29,230 bases of DNA, taken from a virus. Numbering within the stretch: the stretch's first letter is position 1; every line of letters starts with the position of its first letter. Of the stretch, positions 3,308 to 29,230 are shown piece after piece. A program made the translations under genes and the position numbers. Under the pieces are notes generated by a model. It ran no database searches, had not been told where the DNA came from, and saw only the letters and a program-made list of their open reading frames with translations. Location of the stretch: positions 1 to 29,230 of IMG/VR virus record IMGVR_UViG_3300030329_000507; one strand, given 5' to 3'.

Positions 3308-4150
3308 TTATGCTTCTGCATTTATATCCTGAATTTCATTTATATCTCTACTAGGTAGAATCTTATCTTTACAACATTTTGAATCTTGTCTTAGTTCTTC
3401 TTTGCGATAAAAAGCACTCTGCTTACAATTATTACAGAATCCAATATAAAATCTACCAGTAGTATCTAATCTATATTCTACTTCTACTTCTATCTCATCA
3501 GGGAGATCTGCAAATCTCTCTTGAGATAAAAATGTAGTTGGATGTGGTATATACTTCATCTCTGTAAAGCTATTAGTCCAATAATCAACCCACCTCTGAG
3601 TGCCTTTAATAATATCTTCTATAGAGTAGTCCTTTAAGATAGATTCTAATTTAAGTAATGCTTTTGGCTTTCCAATCTTTCTAGGATACAAATCCCAAAA
3701 AACTAAAAAATCTGGATTATCCTTATTCTTCTTTTTCTTTTTATTATTATTCTTATTATTATTCTTATTATTAGGGAGTGAACGTTCATTGAATGTTCCG
3801 TGAATACTCATTGAATGACTACAACCCTCCTCTATAAAATCAAATTTAGATGGATATGGTCTATTGATTTTTTGATGCAACTTCCAATTTTTGATCCTAA
3901 TCAATGTTCTATCATTACCAAACTCAATTAAGCCTAGTTCTTCCATTTTAGTTAGCCCATTTTCAATTACACTAACACTAATACTATCTGCTGGAAATAC
4001 TTTTGCTTTTAAGCCTTTAGCAGAGTATACCTGAATACCCTCATCATCTGCAAAGTTGGTCATTCCTAGAAATAACAATCTTTCTACTGGTGTTAATTCG
4101 ATAACCTTTTCATCGCACCAAAACTCTTTTTTTAATATTCTGTTTCTCAT
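3308..4150 (-). CDS. Phage replication initiator (winged-helix, replisome-organiser type)
   Basis: A 280-residue protein likely to bind the phage origin and recruit the host helicase. Residues 1-105 resemble the winged-helix N-terminus of phage replication proteins (ELTPVERLLFLGMTNFADDEG, then a wing ending IRIKNWKLHQKINRP). A low-complexity Asn/Lys linker follows at about 127-144, encoded by AAT/AAA repeats. A C-terminal part carries FWDLYPRKIGKPKAL (151-165), a phrase common in O/DnaD-type phage initiators. The end has a putative zinc site, C239-x2-C242 with C259-C260. AGGAG lies 13 bases before ATG 4150. The gene is followed immediately by the structured intergenic region, a plausible place for the origin. 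No polymerase, primase or helicase gene is found in the genome. Confidence 0.7.
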   Translation of the reverse strand: MRNRILKKEFWCDEKVIELTPVERLLFLGMTNFADDEGIQVYSAKGLKAKVFPADSISVSVIENGLTKMEELGLIEFGNDRTLIRIKNWKLHQKINRPYPSKFDFIEEGCSHSMSIHGTFNERSLPNNKNNNKNNNKKKKKNKDNPDFLVFWDLYPRKIGKPKALLKLESILKDYSIEDIIKGTQRWVDYWTNSFTEMKYIPHPTTFLSQERFADLPDEIEVEVEYRLDTTGRFYIGFCNNCKQSAFYRKEELRQDSKCCKDKILPSRDINEIQDINAEA

Positions 4151-4174: not shown

Positions 4175-4196
4175 GAATTAATAATATAGTTAATTC
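4175..4196. repeat. Perfect 7-bp inverted repeat upstream of the initiator gene
   Basis: GAATTAA at 4175..4181 and TTAATTC at 4190..4196 are perfect inverses separated by 8 bases, in the 52-base gap between the Mom-like gene stop and the initiator ATG. It has no T-run, so it is not a good terminator. It may be an operator or an mRNA hairpin just upstream of the AGGAG site. Its AT-rich composition means chance is a serious alternative. Confidence 0.35.
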
Positions 4197-4202
4197 TGAT
4201 GT

Positions 4203-4844
4203 TTAAAACAACTTCGTTTGTATTGTTGGATTATAACTTGCATCATATCTTTTGTTTTGACCTTTAGGATATGGTTTTATTTCATATTTTAAGTTACTTA
4301 ACATATTTTTCTTTTGTGTCTTACTACCTAAAAATATTGTATACCTATGTTTTGAACTTCTAAATTTTCTATTTTTTTTATAGTCTAAATTTTTATTATA
4401 ATGTCTGCTGTGAGATTTATCATCATTACCTATATCTGTTCTTTCTTGTGTCTTACCAGTATATATCCAGTTAGTAGCTTGATATATATACCCATTGTGA
4501 TTTTGTTGAGTATCTGCATAACTAACTATAATTTTTGGTTTATCAATTAACTTTAAACAACAACCTACAAAATAAGATGTTAAATTCTTTTTTTTATGGT
4601 CATTAATACATAATCTATTTAATTCATAAACATACTTTGTATATTTCTTTCCACATATACCATCGCACAAAGCTGGAGATGCTGGTTTACCCACAGTTAA
4701 AACACCTATTAATATTTTACTTTCAAATAACCCAAAAGCATAAGAAATACTTGGTATTCTTTTAGCATAATGCTTATGCAACAACCATTCATAAGTTTCT
4801 TTAGAATCAATAGATTGTACGCTGTATTTATCTTTTATGCTCAT
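4203..4844 (-). CDS. mom: Mom-like DNA modification protein (GNAT fold)
   Basis: A 213-residue homologue of the Mu Mom family, which converts adenine in phage DNA to a carbamoylmethylated (momylated) form and so blocks many restriction enzymes. Family landmarks visible are HYAKR at 25-29, the FGLFESKILIGVLTVGKPAS segment at 37-56, ELNRL at 74-78, SYAD at 108-111 and GYIYQATNW at 118-126, in the expected order. Its ATG overlaps the end of the C5-methyltransferase gene by four bases (ATGA), suggesting coupled translation. The basic C-terminal 80 residues probably contact DNA. The exact chemical group it adds cannot be read from sequence; momylation is the inference from family. Confidence 0.85.
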   Translation of the reverse strand: MSIKDKYSVQSIDSKETYEWLLHKHYAKRIPSISYAFGLFESKILIGVLTVGKPASPALCDGICGKKYTKYVYELNRLCINDHKKKNLTSYFVGCCLKLIDKPKIIVSYADTQQNHNGYIYQATNWIYTGKTQERTDIGNDDKSHSRHYNKNLDYKKNRKFRSSKHRYTIFLGSKTQKKNMLSNLKYEIKPYPKGQNKRYDASYNPTIQTKLF

Positions 4845-5515
4845 TTAATAATACTTTCTAATATCTCTCTACATAATTGTTCAGGAACAACTGACCTTTC
4901 ATAGCTTCCCTTTAATCCTTGTGTTCCAGTTTTTGATCCTCTTGGTGCTCTTTCGTGATGACAATCAGGATTACCATTTTTGCATACTGGTCTAGGAATC
5001 CAATGTGCATTAGTCCATATATCAGTTGGCTTTGCCCTTGTATCTCCATATTGACAATACCATATAGTTTTTCTCTCTAAATTATATATCTTCATCTCAG
5101 TCATTTTTCTTAGCAATCCTCTTGGATTTTCTATAATAAAATATAAATCAGTATTCAATTTAGTATAATGTGCGATTATTTCTTTCATCTTCCTGATCAT
5201 TCTTAATCCCCACTCTGCATCTTCTGTTTTAGGGATAAACTCCCTGTCTTTATATGATTGATTAAACTCATTTATATATGATTTATCTTTAGTCCAATGT
5301 GTAGAACAACTTGCTATTGAGAATGTCCTACAAGGTGGAGAAGCCCAAATAATATCAGGAATAAATCCAACCTTATCATAATCAAAGTCAAATATATCAC
5401 ACACTTGGTCAATACCCTCAAAGTCCTTATAGTCCGTTGTATGTGTTTCCATTCCCATTTCTTCTGCAACTTTGCTAAATGACCTAGATCCTGCAAATAA
5501 TTCTAATACTTTCAT
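4841..5515 (-). CDS. Small phage-type C5-cytosine DNA methyltransferase
   Basis: A 224-residue enzyme with C5-methyltransferase motifs: motif I LELFAGSRSFSKVA (4-17), motif IV ASPPCRTFS with catalytic Cys62, and a motif VI variant ENPRG at 129-133 (ENP in place of the usual ENV). QYGDTRAKPTDIWTN (155-169) and a C-terminal RSVVPEQL (207-214) follow. A cysteine/histidine cluster (C178, C185, H186, H187) and APRGSKTGTQG (190-200) are typical of the short phage forms, which lack the large target-recognition domain of bacterial Dcm enzymes. It overlaps the nuclease-like gene and mom by four bases each. Expected to methylate cytosine at C5; a related modification of a nucleotide or a different transferred group is possible. 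Confidence 0.85.
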   Translation of the reverse strand: MKVLELFAGSRSFSKVAEEMGMETHTTDYKDFEGIDQVCDIFDFDYDKVGFIPDIIWASPPCRTFSIASCSTHWTKDKSYINEFNQSYKDREFIPKTEDAEWGLRMIRKMKEIIAHYTKLNTDLYFIIENPRGLLRKMTEMKIYNLERKTIWYCQYGDTRAKPTDIWTNAHWIPRPVCKNGNPDCHHERAPRGSKTGTQGLKGSYERSVVPEQLCREILESIIK

Positions 5516-5916
5516 CTTGTATACCTTATAAATGCTTTATGCAATGGAATATAGCCAACATACTTGTATATAAATTCTTTATTACCAAATTCCGTTGTTA
5601 TCGGCATTTTTTTCCATTCCCATAAAAAGTTATGATTATCTTCTACTAACTCTAAAATATCAAAACAAAAAACCTCATCACCAACCCCAACAACATAATA
5701 AAAATACATTTTATTAAGTGTTGCATATTCTTTATTAAATGAATACTTATCAAATTCAATAAGCGTATCATCGTACATCTTTTCTCTATACTTGATCTCT
5801 GCAATTACATTGTTTCCGTGTGCATCAAATCTTGCATATTTATCGCTAGATTCTTTTAATCCAGTACCTAGAACTTCATTGACTGATGATAAGATTTCTC
5901 GTTCTGTTTGTTTCAC
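5512..5916 (-). CDS. PD-(D/E)XK nuclease-like protein
   Basis: A 134-residue protein with a compact nuclease-like core: YARFDAHGNNVIAEIKYR provides D31 followed by E40-x-K42, the D...ExK spacing of PD-(D/E)XK enzymes, after an N-terminal helix (ILSSVNEVLG) of the kind that precedes this motif. The remainder is beta/alpha with many aromatics and no other recognised domain. Translation starts at GTG 5916, overlapping the upstream small membrane protein gene by four bases (GTGA). Its own stop overlaps the C5-methyltransferase ATG. The pairing of nuclease-like and methyltransferase genes hints at a restriction-like or host-DNA-degrading role, but that is inference; a DNA-repair or junction nuclease is equally possible. 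Confidence 0.55.
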   Translation of the reverse strand: MKQTEREILSSVNEVLGTGLKESSDKYARFDAHGNNVIAEIKYREKMYDDTLIEFDKYSFNKEYATLNKMYFYYVVGVGDEVFCFDILELVEDNHNFLWEWKKMPITTEFGNKEFIYKYVGYIPLHKAFIRYTR

Positions 5917-6068
5917 TTTACTATCCTGACATACATTGGATTGTATTTACTTCCTAGTTGAAATGTTGATGTATAAGAATCATTTTCTGCATACACAATC
6001 ATACTATATGCAAATAATAAACCAATCACCATACCAAGAACTAGATGTATTTTATTATTATTATTCAT
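5913..6068 (-). CDS. Small exported or membrane protein
   Basis: A 51-residue open frame in the gap between 5917 and 6076. It starts at ATG 6068 with a good AGGAG 6 bases upstream and ends with a stop overlapping the next gene's GTG by four bases. It begins MNNNNK, followed by a hydrophobic stretch (residues about 7-26) and then a polar tail of about 25 residues with a plausible signal-peptidase site after VYA. There is no lipobox cysteine. It could be a secreted or membrane-anchored early protein, for example one acting on the host envelope or in superinfection exclusion, but no function is recognised. Confidence 0.65.
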   Translation of the reverse strand: MNNNNKIHLVLGMVIGLLFAYSMIVYAENDSYTSTFQLGSKYNPMYVRIVK

Positions 6069-6076
6069 TTTATCTC

Positions 6077-6271
6077 CTAACCTAATCCGTTATCTCGGTT
6101 TAAGAATTTAAGTATTTTACACTTTGTTTTCTCTACAGAGTGTTTTATCGGCTTTTCGACCTTAAAGTAACTCATATTGTCTAGCACAAACTTATCTGCT
6201 TTTGATTTACTAGAAAAATAAGCCGAGTTTTTCTTTGTTTTTTCTGCGAATTTAACTTCCCAAATATTCAT
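6077..6271 (-). CDS. Hypothetical small early protein
   Basis: A 64-residue basic protein (MNIWEVKFAEKTKKN...) with a short beta-like start and a Lys-rich middle; no recognised domain and no membrane segment. Its ATG 6271 lies 9 bases after the stop of the Erf-like gene, behind an AGGAGG-like site, and its stop is 8 bases before the next small gene. Placement in the early run suggests a recombination or host-takeover accessory, but this is not shown by the sequence. Confidence 0.65.
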   Translation of the reverse strand: MNIWEVKFAEKTKKNSAYFSSKSKADKFVLDNMSYFKVEKPIKHSVEKTKCKILKFLNRDNGLG

Positions 6272-8952: not shown

Positions 8953-11900
8953 TCAAACCCCAGTCCAACTTATTGTTTTAGGAGAAGATTGATTACCTTG
9001 CGAATCTGTTACTATTAATGTTATAGAACATTCTCCCTCCCAAGTACCACCAGCAAAAGCAGAAATATGAGAATCTTGCACACTATCAGGCATAGGAACA
9101 CCATTTCTAACTCTAATCCAACGCCATTCAACAATATTATTACCATAAGGGGAATAACTACCACCCCCATCTACTGTTATATAAGTAGTTACTGGGATTG
9201 TATCCCCATCATAAATTTGTTGGTCTGGATAACCCCCAAAATCATAATATAAGCTTAAATTAGCGATAGGATTCGTATCTACATTTATGTTTAGTATGGT
9301 GTTTAACATAATTATAACATCTTGAACAGTAACACTTCCATCTTGGTCTAGGTCTGCTTGAAATTGTTGATTTTCATCTAATCCTTCACCAGTAAAAATA
9401 TGTGGTAGGACTTGTATAACATCAAATATATCTAAATTATCATCCCCTGTTACATCACCAGTAGGAATATCTATCACTTCTTCTTCACTAACTTCTGCTA
9501 TTTCCCAGTCATCATATTCTGAAGGGGCTAACGCGTGTAATTGGACACATTCTATATTTACTTTTGTTAAATCTTTTTTAATACTTGTAATCATAAAATA
9601 AGGATATACTACTTGGTCTATAATAATGTTTTCTATGGTCATATCCATACCATAAGGCTTGGTGTTGCCTATATTTGTCCTGCTTCCTGAATTATCTACA
9701 AAGTCTATAGTATCTCCCACCTCAAGCTCAAGCCCATCGCCTAATGGAATTTGAAATGATAATATCAAATGTTGATTTTTATTTATCTCAAATAAATGCT
9801 TTGCTAAAACTTCTGCTGATAATCTTTCTTGTATGTATGGAGCTTCGTGTTCCAGAACATAAGTATCTTCATCTTTTATATCATATAAATCTATATAGTT
9901 TTGCTTTATTTGTTGATTATGCTCTATATCAGGCGTTGTTTTTGTATATTCTTCTTTAACATAATCAAAGCCATATTTAACTCTGCATTTTATTGCTACA
10001 TCTTCTATCTTTGTTTTTCTGAATTTGTAATTTATAATCTGATTCTCATTTATACTTTTATCAACATCATCATCTGCATAAAAAGGCTTTATACCAACAA
10101 TAGATGGAATCCCATCGCTTATACTTGTCTTATAAAAAAATGGTGAAGATTGAGATATTTTTTGCATAACATCAATACCTTCCTCTTTTTCGTATAATGA
10201 GAAATCAAGAAAATACTTATCATCTTCTACGTTCTTTTTATTAATTTGAGAGTTTTGAGGGAATCCAAATTCTTTTTTAACTATATCATCTGTAACATCT
10301 GATGGCTTTCTAATTAATTGATCTAGCCCACTAGAAGTTTTATCTCCGTGTATTTTGCCTTTTACGAATTTATTATTAGTATTATCATTCTCATACTCTA
10401 ACAAAGCAACATCAACAATATCATTATCACTCATAGCAACAAATGGAGTTAATTCTTCTTCATCTGCAAATGTCCAAGAATCTATTTCTCCTAATGATGT
10501 TAGATTTCTCCTTGCATATCTAAGTTTAAAATTTCTTAATGATGATAAATCATTATAGTTTACCCAATTACTTGTAGTTTGAACTCTAAATATATTAGAA
10601 CTTAAATCAAAACTATATTTAACATTATTTGCATTATCATTATGGAAAACATCAAAATTATTTACATCTATATCAAATAAAATTTGTTGTTCATCTTGGT
10701 ACTCCCAAGATGCGAGAGCTTGAGTGGGATTTGTATCATATCTCCAATTCTGACAATCTATAACAAGTTCATATCTATAACCATTAGCATAATATGTTTT
10801 TAATCTATCATTTGTCAAATAATCTATTAATTGCAATAATGTTTCATCTTCTTGGTGAACTTGTCTATGCTCATTTGCGACATCAACTGAATTTGATGTA
10901 AATTCTATTCTAATATGATCCGAATGATATAACCTATCATTACTATTAGGTGCTTCTATGTATTTACCTTTAGCATTAACAAAGAAGTTTTCATTAAAAC
11001 ATTCTTTCTGATACCAACTACGCTGGTAGAACATTCCAGAAAATAATGCTTTTTGTCTATATCTTAATTCAATGTCATTATAATTATTAGGTAAATTCCA
11101 ATCATCATCGCAATATGTAGTAGGAAAATAAGGGAACATATAAGTTGTAATGATATTCTGATTAACATAATCAATAGAATCTAAAAATTTATAATATGCT
11201 CTCCAAGTATTACTGCCTTGAATATTATCTACATTTTGTTGAGTTGTGTGAAATGTATGTCTATAATCTGTAAACACTTCATCAACGGAATTTTCGGTGC
11301 TTGATTCTTGTGTCCAAATTCTTATAGGACAACCTTTATAAAAATGTGCTGAAATCCAAGCAATATTTCTATTATATTCAGTTATCCAATCACCATATAC
11401 ACTATATGGTTCTTCATCTACTGGATTAATATCGCTTGTTAATGAAGAATAAACATTCCTGACTGCTCCAAGTGGCTGCGATGTTAATTCAACGGAATTA
11501 TTAGAGTTATTCAAATCTTGGTCTATTTTAAATTCTGGATTAACTATAAAGTTTGCTTTTTGTGGAAAAAATCCAAATTCCCAATGTCGTGGAGTACGTT
11601 CTGCACCATCATCGTCAAATACTTGATGATATTTGTTGTTAATTGCCTTAAAAGATGAAATTAGTTTCCCATCTGAACGAGTATCGATTGTTCTTTCTTG
11701 TGATTTACTAATACTTGATTTTAATGGTTCAAATTCAAATTCTACTATAGGCACATCAAAATTCTTATAAGTTTGGTCGCCAATATCAAATTCTTCAGTT
11801 TGATATTCACAATCTACTTCTTGACCATTATTATCATATTTTACTGGATAAACAGATAGCATATCAAAATATTCAGGCTGTGAATTTGATGAATTTATTA

Positions 11901-12939
11901 CATCAGATATATCTGTTTTAACATATACTTCAGCATTATCGTCAGTATCTAAAATAGGTAGAAAATATCTAGCCTTATAAGTTTTATAAGAAATAAGTTT
12001 AGACAATTCTCCACAAAATAAATTACCAGTAGGTATGTTTTCTTGATTCGTTCCATCACCTTGTGTTACTAAATTTATATAATCACCTTCTACTATAAAT
12101 TGAGATTCCCAATCTGTTGGATATTTATAATCAACAACCCAATCACCTTCCACTAATCTCTTATTTAATCTATCAGGTGGCTCTGAATATACATTTGCAG
12201 CGTGGTCGCCTAGCTTTATAAATAATGTATCTTGATTAATTAACTGATTAGTTAAATCGTTTTCTGAAGTTCTAGCATTAATATTCTTAATACCTATAAT
12301 ATCATAATCATCTTTAAATGCTCTATCAGGAACAATTAAAATATTATTATCAGCAAATGGTGCTTCTGTTTCGTGGTCGTCAATATACACTACTGCTGGT
12401 GCCTGTTTCAAATGTCCATATAATACTGGTATTCTTCTTTCGTTATCACCTACAAATGTTTGCTCATCTTGATATAATGTATGCTCAGATAATGGTAACT
12501 CTTTGTGAAATTCATCTATAAACCTATCTTCACATTTTAAATCTATCTTAGATGAATCGTGTGTTACTCCAGTTATTTTTAATGAAGCTATTTTATTACA
12601 GTCATCTAAACTTTCGCAAGATTGTGTTTTTATATAAATATCAATAACACCACCAGTCATTTCGCCTACAATCGTATCTGAGAAGCGTATTCCACTCATT
12701 TCGGCATTATTTATTGTTATTGATGTTCCACTTAGCTTTATTTTTTTATCTCTTAAATTAATGGATTCTTTAAGTCCACCAACTTTCATTATCAAATCGT
12801 CATAATAAATCCCATCTAATGTTTGTGATTGAGTTGATAGGTAATAGGTTTTGGAGCTAGAATTAATTATAAATAGCAAATCAAAATTATTAATGCTAGA
12901 AGATAAATCGTTTTTTATTTTAGGTTTTAATTCTATCAC
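8953..12939 (-). CDS. Giant tail-tip (central hub/fibre) protein with dockerin-like and PKD-like C-terminus
   Basis: A 1328-residue protein expected to form the tail tip and contact the host surface. The first 150 residues (INLRDKKIKLSGTSITINNAEMSG...GGVIDIYI) resemble the start of phage tail-hub proteins. The middle is long, Asn/Tyr/Asp-rich and beta-like. Residues about 940-1140 again look like a hub/baseplate domain (LEVGDTIDFVDNSGS). Residues 1160-1217 contain two calcium-loop repeats, GDVTGDDNLDIFDVIQVL and ADLDQDGSVTVQDVIIML, the signature of type I dockerin. Residues 1222-1328 look like a PKD/Ig-like beta sandwich (GGGSYSPYGNNIVEWRW ... CSITLIVTDSQGN). The ATG at 12939 overlaps the tape measure stop by four bases. 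Confidence 0.8.
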   Translation of the reverse strand: MIELKPKIKNDLSSSINNFDLLFIINSSSKTYYLSTQSQTLDGIYYDDLIMKVGGLKESINLRDKKIKLSGTSITINNAEMSGIRFSDTIVGEMTGGVIDIYIKTQSCESLDDCNKIASLKITGVTHDSSKIDLKCEDRFIDEFHKELPLSEHTLYQDEQTFVGDNERRIPVLYGHLKQAPAVVYIDDHETEAPFADNNILIVPDRAFKDDYDIIGIKNINARTSENDLTNQLINQDTLFIKLGDHAANVYSEPPDRLNKRLVEGDWVVDYKYPTDWESQFIVEGDYINLVTQGDGTNQENIPTGNLFCGELSKLISYKTYKARYFLPILDTDDNAEVYVKTDISDVINSSNSQPEYFDMLSVYPVKYDNNGQEVDCEYQTEEFDIGDQTYKNFDVPIVEFEFEPLKSSISKSQERTIDTRSDGKLISSFKAINNKYHQVFDDDGAERTPRHWEFGFFPQKANFIVNPEFKIDQDLNNSNNSVELTSQPLGAVRNVYSSLTSDINPVDEEPYSVYGDWITEYNRNIAWISAHFYKGCPIRIWTQESSTENSVDEVFTDYRHTFHTTQQNVDNIQGSNTWRAYYKFLDSIDYVNQNIITTYMFPYFPTTYCDDDWNLPNNYNDIELRYRQKALFSGMFYQRSWYQKECFNENFFVNAKGKYIEAPNSNDRLYHSDHIRIEFTSNSVDVANEHRQVHQEDETLLQLIDYLTNDRLKTYYANGYRYELVIDCQNWRYDTNPTQALASWEYQDEQQILFDIDVNNFDVFHNDNANNVKYSFDLSSNIFRVQTTSNWVNYNDLSSLRNFKLRYARRNLTSLGEIDSWTFADEEELTPFVAMSDNDIVDVALLEYENDNTNNKFVKGKIHGDKTSSGLDQLIRKPSDVTDDIVKKEFGFPQNSQINKKNVEDDKYFLDFSLYEKEEGIDVMQKISQSSPFFYKTSISDGIPSIVGIKPFYADDDVDKSINENQIINYKFRKTKIEDVAIKCRVKYGFDYVKEEYTKTTPDIEHNQQIKQNYIDLYDIKDEDTYVLEHEAPYIQERLSAEVLAKHLFEINKNQHLILSFQIPLGDGLELEVGDTIDFVDNSGSRTNIGNTKPYGMDMTIENIIIDQVVYPYFMITSIKKDLTKVNIECVQLHALAPSEYDDWEIAEVSEEEVIDIPTGDVTGDDNLDIFDVIQVLPHIFTGEGLDENQQFQADLDQDGSVTVQDVIIMLNTILNINVDTNPIANLSLYYDFGGYPDQQIYDGDTIPVTTYITVDGGGSYSPYGNNIVEWRWIRVRNGVPMPDSVQDSHISAFAGGTWEGECSITLIVTDSQGNQSSPKTISWTGV

Positions 12940-27941: not shown

Positions 27942-29200
27942 CTCTCTATTGCTCCTAATGTTGGTTTAATTATTGGAAATTCCCATTCTATCGCATAACC
28001 GAGTGCATCTGTCATATGTGTTAATAACTTATTACTCTTGTCAATATCCCTAGTTCCTTGTTTGTTAGTAACCTTCTCTAGGTCTTGTATTAACGCTTTG
28101 CATCTCGGATCAATAATGATGTTTCCCTCCAACATTTTGTTTACCGAATTAACTCTATTTGTAACTGGTGGATTGCTCTTACGAACATTCACTTTAAACC
28201 CAGCTTGTTTTAATAAATCTATATCACTAAACATAGCTGATGTATGTCTTTGAAATCCACTCGCATCAGGATAAGCTATATACTGATGATTAGGATATTT
28301 ATCTTTGATTACTGCACACATTCTAGCACTTAATAAATCCCCTTGACCTTGATGTGATAATGATATGCAGTCGAAGATTCTGACTTTTGGCTCTGTCTTG
28401 TATGTGTGGAATAGAACTGCACACATCGGATCGACGTTCCAGTCGATACCCACCCTGACTGGCTGACTTCTGTCGTATTCACATTTTTGGACATTCTTAC
28501 TCCTCTCAAATGAATGATATGTTGATAGTGCTGATATGTTTACAAACTCACCATCACGATACGCTTGTAACATACTTTTATCATAGTTTTCTTCTAATAA
28601 GTCTACATAAGTATCTGGAAGATAAACATTGTCGGTAGTCTTTCCGTGTATCAATGCTTTGCTATCATTAAAATTCTCTACAAATTGATGATGTGTGTAA
28701 TGAAATCCCTCTGGCGATGTTACAATATATATCTCACAATCACTACTACCTCTCATACGACCAATAGCTTTCTTGTATGCTATATCGCAATTCTTCCAGC
28801 TTTCTACATCAAACTCATCAAACCCAATAAAAGTAAGCTCTGCACCAATAATTCTTTGTGGCTTTTGTAACTGGTATATCTTCATTATTCCATATGGCGT
28901 AGTGAACTTATGTTTCTGAACATTGTATTTGTAATTGATACCATTACGTTCAAATATATCTTTCATTGGCTCTACAAACAATTCTTCTGCTAATTCGTAT
29001 GTAGGATATATAATCCAACCATTAGACATATCTTTATCGTTTCTTTTCTTTATATGATTGATAAATGTCTTGTGTAAAAAAGCGTATGTTTTACCAGATC
29101 CAAATCCACCGACTAAAGCGTTAATCTTTTTCTTAGATGTAATGAACTCCCATTGATGAGGAAGATAATCCTCTTGATATAAAGTCATTTTAGATTCCAT
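27938..29200 (-). CDS. terL: Terminase large subunit
   Basis: A 420-residue packaging motor and nuclease. Walker A is GGFGSGKT at 31-38, Walker B LTFIGFDEFD at about 122-131 (D128-E129), and a coupling-type TSPEG at 161-165 follows. The C-terminal RNase H-like nuclease carries acidic residues in GIDWNVDP (D253), PDASG (D312) and HMTDALGYA (D398). ATG 29200 overlaps the small terminase stop by 11 bases when the genome is circularised (69 in left coordinates); the first 23 codons are therefore also present at 1..69. It is a compact member. Overlap with portal by four bases indicates a packaging-head operon. Confidence 0.97.
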   Translation of the reverse strand: MESKMTLYQEDYLPHQWEFITSKKKINALVGGFGSGKTYAFLHKTFINHIKKRNDKDMSNGWIIYPTYELAEELFVEPMKDIFERNGINYKYNVQKHKFTTPYGIMKIYQLQKPQRIIGAELTFIGFDEFDVESWKNCDIAYKKAIGRMRGSSDCEIYIVTSPEGFHYTHHQFVENFNDSKALIHGKTTDNVYLPDTYVDLLEENYDKSMLQAYRDGEFVNISALSTYHSFERSKNVQKCEYDRSQPVRVGIDWNVDPMCAVLFHTYKTEPKVRIFDCISLSHQGQGDLLSARMCAVIKDKYPNHQYIAYPDASGFQRHTSAMFSDIDLLKQAGFKVNVRKSNPPVTNRVNSVNKMLEGNIIIDPRCKALIQDLEKVTNKQGTRDIDKSNKLLTHMTDALGYAIEWEFPIIKPTLGAIER

Positions 29201-29229
29201 CGAACTCTATCTCATCTATTGGTCTAATG
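29132..29229. repeat. Terminal direct repeat, right copy
   Basis: Exact copy of bases 1..98. It holds the intact start of the large terminase gene and a fragment of the small terminase gene (29190..29230) cut off by the window edge; the complete small terminase is at 59..370. Treat this copy as redundant when the genome is circularised. Confidence 0.9.
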
Positions 29230-29230
29230 A

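Follow-up and report, generated by a model that had tools for sequence, protein, structure and literature searches.

Mom of phage Mu, a phage-encoded DNA modification protein with a solved structure (PF25680; PDB 8bv8), is among the closest known relatives of one of the proteins considered here; according to one account (PMC6483171), translation of its gene is activated by Com. Mom domains have also been found fused to restriction endonuclease (REase)-fold nucleases in jumbo phages, an arrangement interpreted as a device that protects the phage itself and attacks the host (PMC7824862). For the neighbouring genes the nearest comparisons are the short C5-cytosine methyltransferase (C5-MTase)-like proteins grouped in phrog_757, the Hjc resolvases (PDB 2wiw, 2wcw and 1gef) and, at the level of gene arrangement, the hotspots of P2/P4 at which variable genes lie between conserved ones (PMC9122126).

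We compared with these systems a string of four genes in the IMG/VR virus record IMGVR_UViG_3300030329_000507, all 29,230 bases of which (positions 1 to 29,230) were analysed and are referred to as the window. Its GC content is ~33% and the minus strand holds nearly all of its genes. The two ends (1-99 and 29132-29230) form a 99-base direct repeat with a single mismatch, at the last base, and the record is therefore probably a complete genome of ~29.1 kb, circularly permuted or circular.

The original prediction read the four genes as a translationally coupled restriction-modification or host-DNA-destruction module in which modification protects the phage DNA, and as a combination not known from a described system. 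In view of the published jumbo-phage fusions, the last of these statements was too strong. As set out below, the identities assigned to the genes (nuclease-like, C5-MTase-like and Mom) stood up to analysis, but the placing of the nuclease in a restriction or host-destruction module with both modifiers did not.

A four-gene stretch of a longer operon

The four genes (51, 134, 224 and 213 aa, in the order in which the minus strand is read) do overlap by exactly 4 nt each, through GTGA, ATGA and ATGA. They are listed here with their surroundings. L002, a 28,255-base contig, is the nearest relative and the sole close relative of the whole region compared; L089 is a more distant one.

3308..4150, minus strand: replication initiation protein (phrog_270, 9e-27), conserved, the downstream bound of a variable slot
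4195..5511, minus strand: exchanged segment with the C5 and Mom genes (blastn breakpoints and ORFs)
4203..4844, minus strand: Mom-family DNA modification protein, 213 aa (PF25680, phrog_1384, PDB 8bv8)
4841-4844, minus strand: ATGA overlap of the C5 and Mom genes
4841..5515, minus strand: short C5-cytosine methyltransferase-like protein, 224 aa (phrog_757, motifs, fold)
5512-5515, minus strand: ATGA overlap of the nuclease and C5 genes, and breakpoint from conserved to exchanged sequence (window against L002)
5512..5916, minus strand: predicted PD-(D/E)XK nuclease-fold protein, 134 aa, GTG start (AF2 model, PDB fold matches)
5913-5916, minus strand: GTGA overlap of the 51-aa ORF and the nuclease gene
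5913..6068, minus strand: 51-aa ORF with a hydrophobic N-terminus (sequence inspection)
6077..6271, minus strand: conserved 64-aa ORF, the upstream bound of the slot in L002 and L089

Genome-wide, 6 of the 41 gene junctions are of the exact 4-nt type and 24 of 41 overlap in some form, and the probability of three successive 4-nt junctions, estimated by shuffling, is ~0.07. Since no other short overlap configuration is nearly as common in prokaryotes as that of 4 nt (PMC10666635), such overlaps do not mark a special unit. Translational coupling across them is plausible yet ordinary, because, besides the frequency of this configuration, 13 of 14 overlapping pairs tested in another study were found to be coupled (PMC6728339); the fixed ratios of synthesis that the original prediction read into the overlaps go beyond this evidence. 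The two genes next upstream continue at spacings of 8-9 nt, and the four genes are thus a stretch of a longer operon, not a discrete block. A promoter of their own was considered and rejected, the promoter-like matches observed (19) being fewer than those in shuffled sequences (26.1).

Upstream of the early genes, a strong terminator-like hairpin on the minus strand (7375-7340; 15 pairs followed by a T-run) lies between the structural genes and the operon that includes the four genes. The structural gene region includes a 1328-aa protein (8953-12939), the C-terminal part of which contains, by inspection only, dockerin-like repeats (GDVTGDDNLDIFDV... and DLDQDGSVTVQDV...).

Properties of the encoded proteins

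By sequence, the 213-aa protein is a clear member of the Mom family. It matched PF25680 over positions 2-202 of 202 (E 2.1e-37; 129.2 bits, against a cut-off of 27.1), phrog_1384 at 4.6e-64, and PDB 8bv8 ('Methylcarbamoylase mom') at 4e-9 as a single sequence and 1e-14 as a profile. The motifs KHY.+R, ELNR and S[YF]AD are common to the window protein and the Mu Mom structure, aligning as KHYAKR/KHYSRR, ELNR and SYAD/SFAD. The window gene therefore resembles that of Mu in its full-length profile match, its motifs and its residence in a phage; unlike the Mu gene, it is the last of an overlapping string and lies ahead of a replication initiator. Relatives of Mom are frequent, with 269 phage records matched at E 1e-5 and at least 565 stretches in IMG/VR. 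The genes upstream of them are very different between loci, and the overlap with the upstream gene is of exactly 4 nt in 24 of the 69 loci that have such a gene on the same strand.

The call of the 134-aa protein as nuclease-like was borne out. D31, E40 and K42 occupy the positions given in the original prediction and are invariant, together with R44, Y48, E54, K57 and Y58, in an alignment of 20 diverse homologues. An AF2 model, for which the alignment was made of window and viral-contig sequences only, was of high confidence (pLDDT 92.3, pTM 0.85) and predicts a PD-(D/E)XK core fold bearing the D and ExK residues, and not, as had been named as grounds for abandoning the call, a protein without a nuclease fold. 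The best PDB fold match was archaeal Hjc (Foldseek and VIA-align; Z 11.3 over 105 residues, 2.6 A). Hjc chains top the fold list, most of them with Z scores of 8.7-11.3 and one of 8.0; the others, at 8.4 or less, were D212 nuclease, alkaline exonuclease (LHK), SPARDA nuclease domains and RecU, with PvuII lower. The small PD-(D/E)XK fold predicted for the window protein is thus common to Hjc over nearly the whole length, the likeness being one of fold, at 9-18% sequence identity. Hjc was absent from profile searches of PDB sequences with two profiles, and we therefore call the protein Hjc-like in fold and do not class it as Hjc. No convincing Pfam or PHROG family was found for it; named families gave sub-threshold matches only (e.g. 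TnsA N-terminal at 0.013), and its structural neighbours in BFVD are mostly unnamed phage proteins. Its homologues are encoded by short ORFs (~124-170 aa) that include no Mom domain.

The breadth of this fold family, with matches extending to D212 nuclease, LHK exonuclease and the SPARDA nuclease domain, raises the alternative that the protein is some other phage DNA-processing enzyme (a flap, nicking or host-DNA-recycling nuclease), with C5 and Mom as independent anti-restriction cargo. The genome already encodes a RusA resolvase (1536-1958), which would make another resolvase-like enzyme redundant and speaks for this alternative; however, Hjc chains lead the fold list and the small size of the protein is Hjc-like, and we regard it as unlikely.

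For the 224-aa protein, the assignment as C5-MTase-like holds, although the score against Pfam DNA_methylase (14.3 bits) falls below the cut-off of 22. The protein matches phrog_757 at 1.6e-24, and its model (pLDDT 76.5) has a Rossmann-type MTase fold for which Foldseek returned DNMT3B, M.HaeIII and M.HhaI at 1.8e-6 to 1e-4. A 62%-identical homologue in L002 passes the Pfam cut-off (25.5 bits). Motifs I (ELFAGSRS), IV (SPPC) and VI (ENP, with P replacing V) are invariant in seven homologues, barring one PDC for PPC and one ELYAGSRS for ELFAGSRS; the catalytic C62, along with E129 and N130, is invariant in all of them. Identity is 51-62% to other viral copies and ~26-48% to copies in Bacillus, Lactococcus, Haloferax and gut phages. 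The motifs are those of the other short phage proteins of phrog_757, from which there is no essential difference and whose neighbours vary between phages.

Its short length, the ENP in place of ENV, a score below the Pfam cut-off and a likely target-recognition region (residues 179-206) that is small and modelled with low confidence mean that it may be something other than an ordinary DNA C5-MTase. The same features could be taken to mean that the protein is not a protective DNA C5-MTase and either acts on a different target (host DNA, RNA or a nucleotide) or produces a base for further modification together with Mom. In keeping with this, a different short C5-like family, in which motif VI is again ENP, is found directly or a short way upstream of Mom in several phages (L003:3088-3753, L121:118-771, L124:1206-1835 and L137:3358-4023). 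We nevertheless consider such a role quite unlikely, given the invariance of the catalytic Cys62 and of Glu129, a fold that matches DNA C5-MTases, a 62%-identical homologue above the Pfam cut-off, and the fact that Mom mostly occurs without C5-like neighbours. Indeed, when three types of C5-like gene were counted, only 11 of 79 Mom loci had one within four genes, and a special Mom-C5 link was rejected.

The product of the 51-aa ORF is likely to be a signal peptide or membrane anchor, as judged by inspection only. It had no significant family match in Pfam or PHROGs, and the sole copy elsewhere is in L002 (98% identical).

The nuclease and modification genes in other phages

Homologues of the nuclease are widespread in phages and are generally without modification neighbours. 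Of 74 IMG/VR nuclease loci, L012 (the L002 contig) and L019 were the only two with a C5 gene of the phrog_757 type close by, and none had Mom near the nuclease. Among 85 neighbours of diverse homologues, Pfam and PHROGs identified Toprim/primase, sigma-70 region 4, DUF1599, DnaA C-terminal, NinG and replication initiation genes; DNA methylase is absent from the complete Pfam list, and the nuclease was rejected as a methyltransferase partner. A whole-record search of 17 other nuclease-bearing virus records, many of which may be fragments, did not find Mom in any of them; the search recovered Mom in five of five positive controls and also covered L089. Conversely, the nuclease was present in just two of 15 further Mom-bearing records, many again possibly fragments, where it lies ~4 kb from Mom, and divergent homologues lie 2.5-3.2 kb from Mom on three short contigs (L102, L130 and L136). 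No homologue of the nuclease was found in bacterial genomes in two scans whose narrow patterns make them weak evidence of absence, nor in plasmids in one search. In many relatives (L021, L025, L032, L034, L062 and L064) the nuclease gene has a 4-nt overlap with a downstream gene of 214-229 aa, and genes of this type among the nuclease neighbours match sigma factors.

The nuclease is thus not consistently paired with a cognate modification enzyme, as a restriction-modification system requires, and its occurrence without modification genes in all three surveys argues against the nuclease-modifier module that had been proposed. Neither is the gene order conserved: in L002 the peptide and nuclease genes are retained, 93-98% identical, and Mom was not found on its contig.

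These results bear directly on the analogy with the jumbo-phage fusions, which likewise combine Mom and a REase-fold nuclease in one phage. By this analogy, C5 and Mom would mark phage DNA and the coupled nuclease would degrade unmodified DNA of the host or of rival phages. Such a device would be consistent with the REase-like fold and intact D-ExK site, with the precedent of Mom fused to REase-fold domains, and with the tight overlaps that put all three genes in one translated unit. We judge it very unlikely here, however, as L002 keeps the nuclease without Mom, Mom is missing from all 17 of the other nuclease-bearing records searched for it, the neighbours of the nuclease are replication genes, and junction resolvases are the nearest structural matches, restriction enzymes such as PvuII ranking below them. 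Moreover, in contrast to the fused proteins, in the window Mom and the nuclease are separate ORFs on either side of the C5 gene, the nuclease is most like junction resolvases in its predicted fold, and the nuclease-Mom linkage is not conserved. A split, double-marked version of the Mom-REase system, in which C5 and Mom mark phage DNA and a co-translated Hjc-like nuclease cuts whatever is unmarked, seems to us more improbable still. Since the nuclease-modifier linkage that it requires is not seen, the idea of a device that tells self from host is unsupported at this locus despite its precedent.

An exchangeable slot ahead of the replication initiator

Over the peptide and nuclease genes L002 is 94.4% identical to the window, up to the ATGA at 5512-5515, beyond which the two diverge (blastn); identity resumes, at 96.4%, from position 4194, ~10 nt past the Mom stop. 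Between these points L002 has ORFs of 63, 49, 49, 66 and 51 aa and the 62%-identical C5 gene. Both bounds are well conserved, the replication initiation protein being 98.6% identical in L002, and the 64-aa ORF 98% identical there and 89% in L089. In L089 the slot before the same replication gene is filled by other ORFs along with a different, canonical C5-MTase; the nuclease, the 51-aa ORF and Mom are all absent. In another pair, L018 and L019, with flanks that are 97-98% identical, the C5 gene is cleanly present only in L019. There it lies between two ATGA junctions (L019:4077-4714); L018 has one ATGA (L018:4306-4309).

Taken together, the exchanged contents of L002, L018/L019 and L089 establish the slot as a place where modification genes are exchanged. 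Because the content of the slot differs in L002 and the C5 gene is present or absent within the L018/L019 pair, the C5 and Mom genes of the window appear to be interchangeable cargo for anti-restriction, placed in a variable slot that precedes the replication initiator gene. A conserved four-gene system was rejected, as L002 is without Mom and the next relatives are without the nuclease or have other slot genes. The arrangement is reminiscent of the P2/P4 hotspots in having a fixed slot with varying genes; whereas those hotspots carry antiviral systems, the slot here carries DNA-modification genes as presumed anti-restriction cargo.

Other modification genes of the window show the same pattern of exchange. 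An N6/N4 methyltransferase gene (2163-2915; N6_N4_Mtase 1.5e-35) has an unrelated 180-aa ORF in its place in L002. A fusion of a ParB domain with an N6/N4 methyltransferase (357-1514) adjoins the terminase small subunit gene; it was not found on the L002 and L089 contigs, which may be fragments, in a search that had no positive control. In L087 and L088, RusA leads directly into the terminase small subunit.

Each part of the four-gene block is of a known kind, and we think it probable that they belong to an ordinary replication/recombination operon, in which a recombination or replication nuclease is followed by an exchangeable slot with protective C5 and Mom genes. The nuclease, whose gene is overlapped at its upstream end by a tiny ORF, is predicted to be a metal-dependent PD-(D/E)XK enzyme of phage recombination or replication, and its substrate would most likely be branched DNA, as for Hjc or RecU. 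The slot would begin directly after it and end just before the replication initiator, genes joining or leaving at the ATGA stop/start junctions, so that an incoming gene could be translated by reinitiation and would not need a promoter of its own. In this way the replication genes would be co-expressed with the modification genes that happen to be in the slot at the time. The C5-like protein and Mom would modify phage DNA during replication, Mom probably by adding a bulky group to adenine N6, and DNA so modified would resist cutting by host restriction enzymes. The proposal that modification protects the phage DNA is thus supported as an idea, with protection itself presumed.

More generally, this case cautions that a functional system is only weakly indicated by four-base overlaps and operon neighbourhood by themselves. 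Two modest points of interest emerge: the exact exchange at ATGA junctions, and a predicted role, based on fold, for a widespread and unnamed family of phage nucleases with no Pfam or PHROG match here. The first of these suggests how DNA-modification genes with a presumed protective role may be swapped among closely related small phages: an incoming gene replaces whatever follows the ATGA stop/start overlap, and the neighbouring replication genes are left undisturbed.
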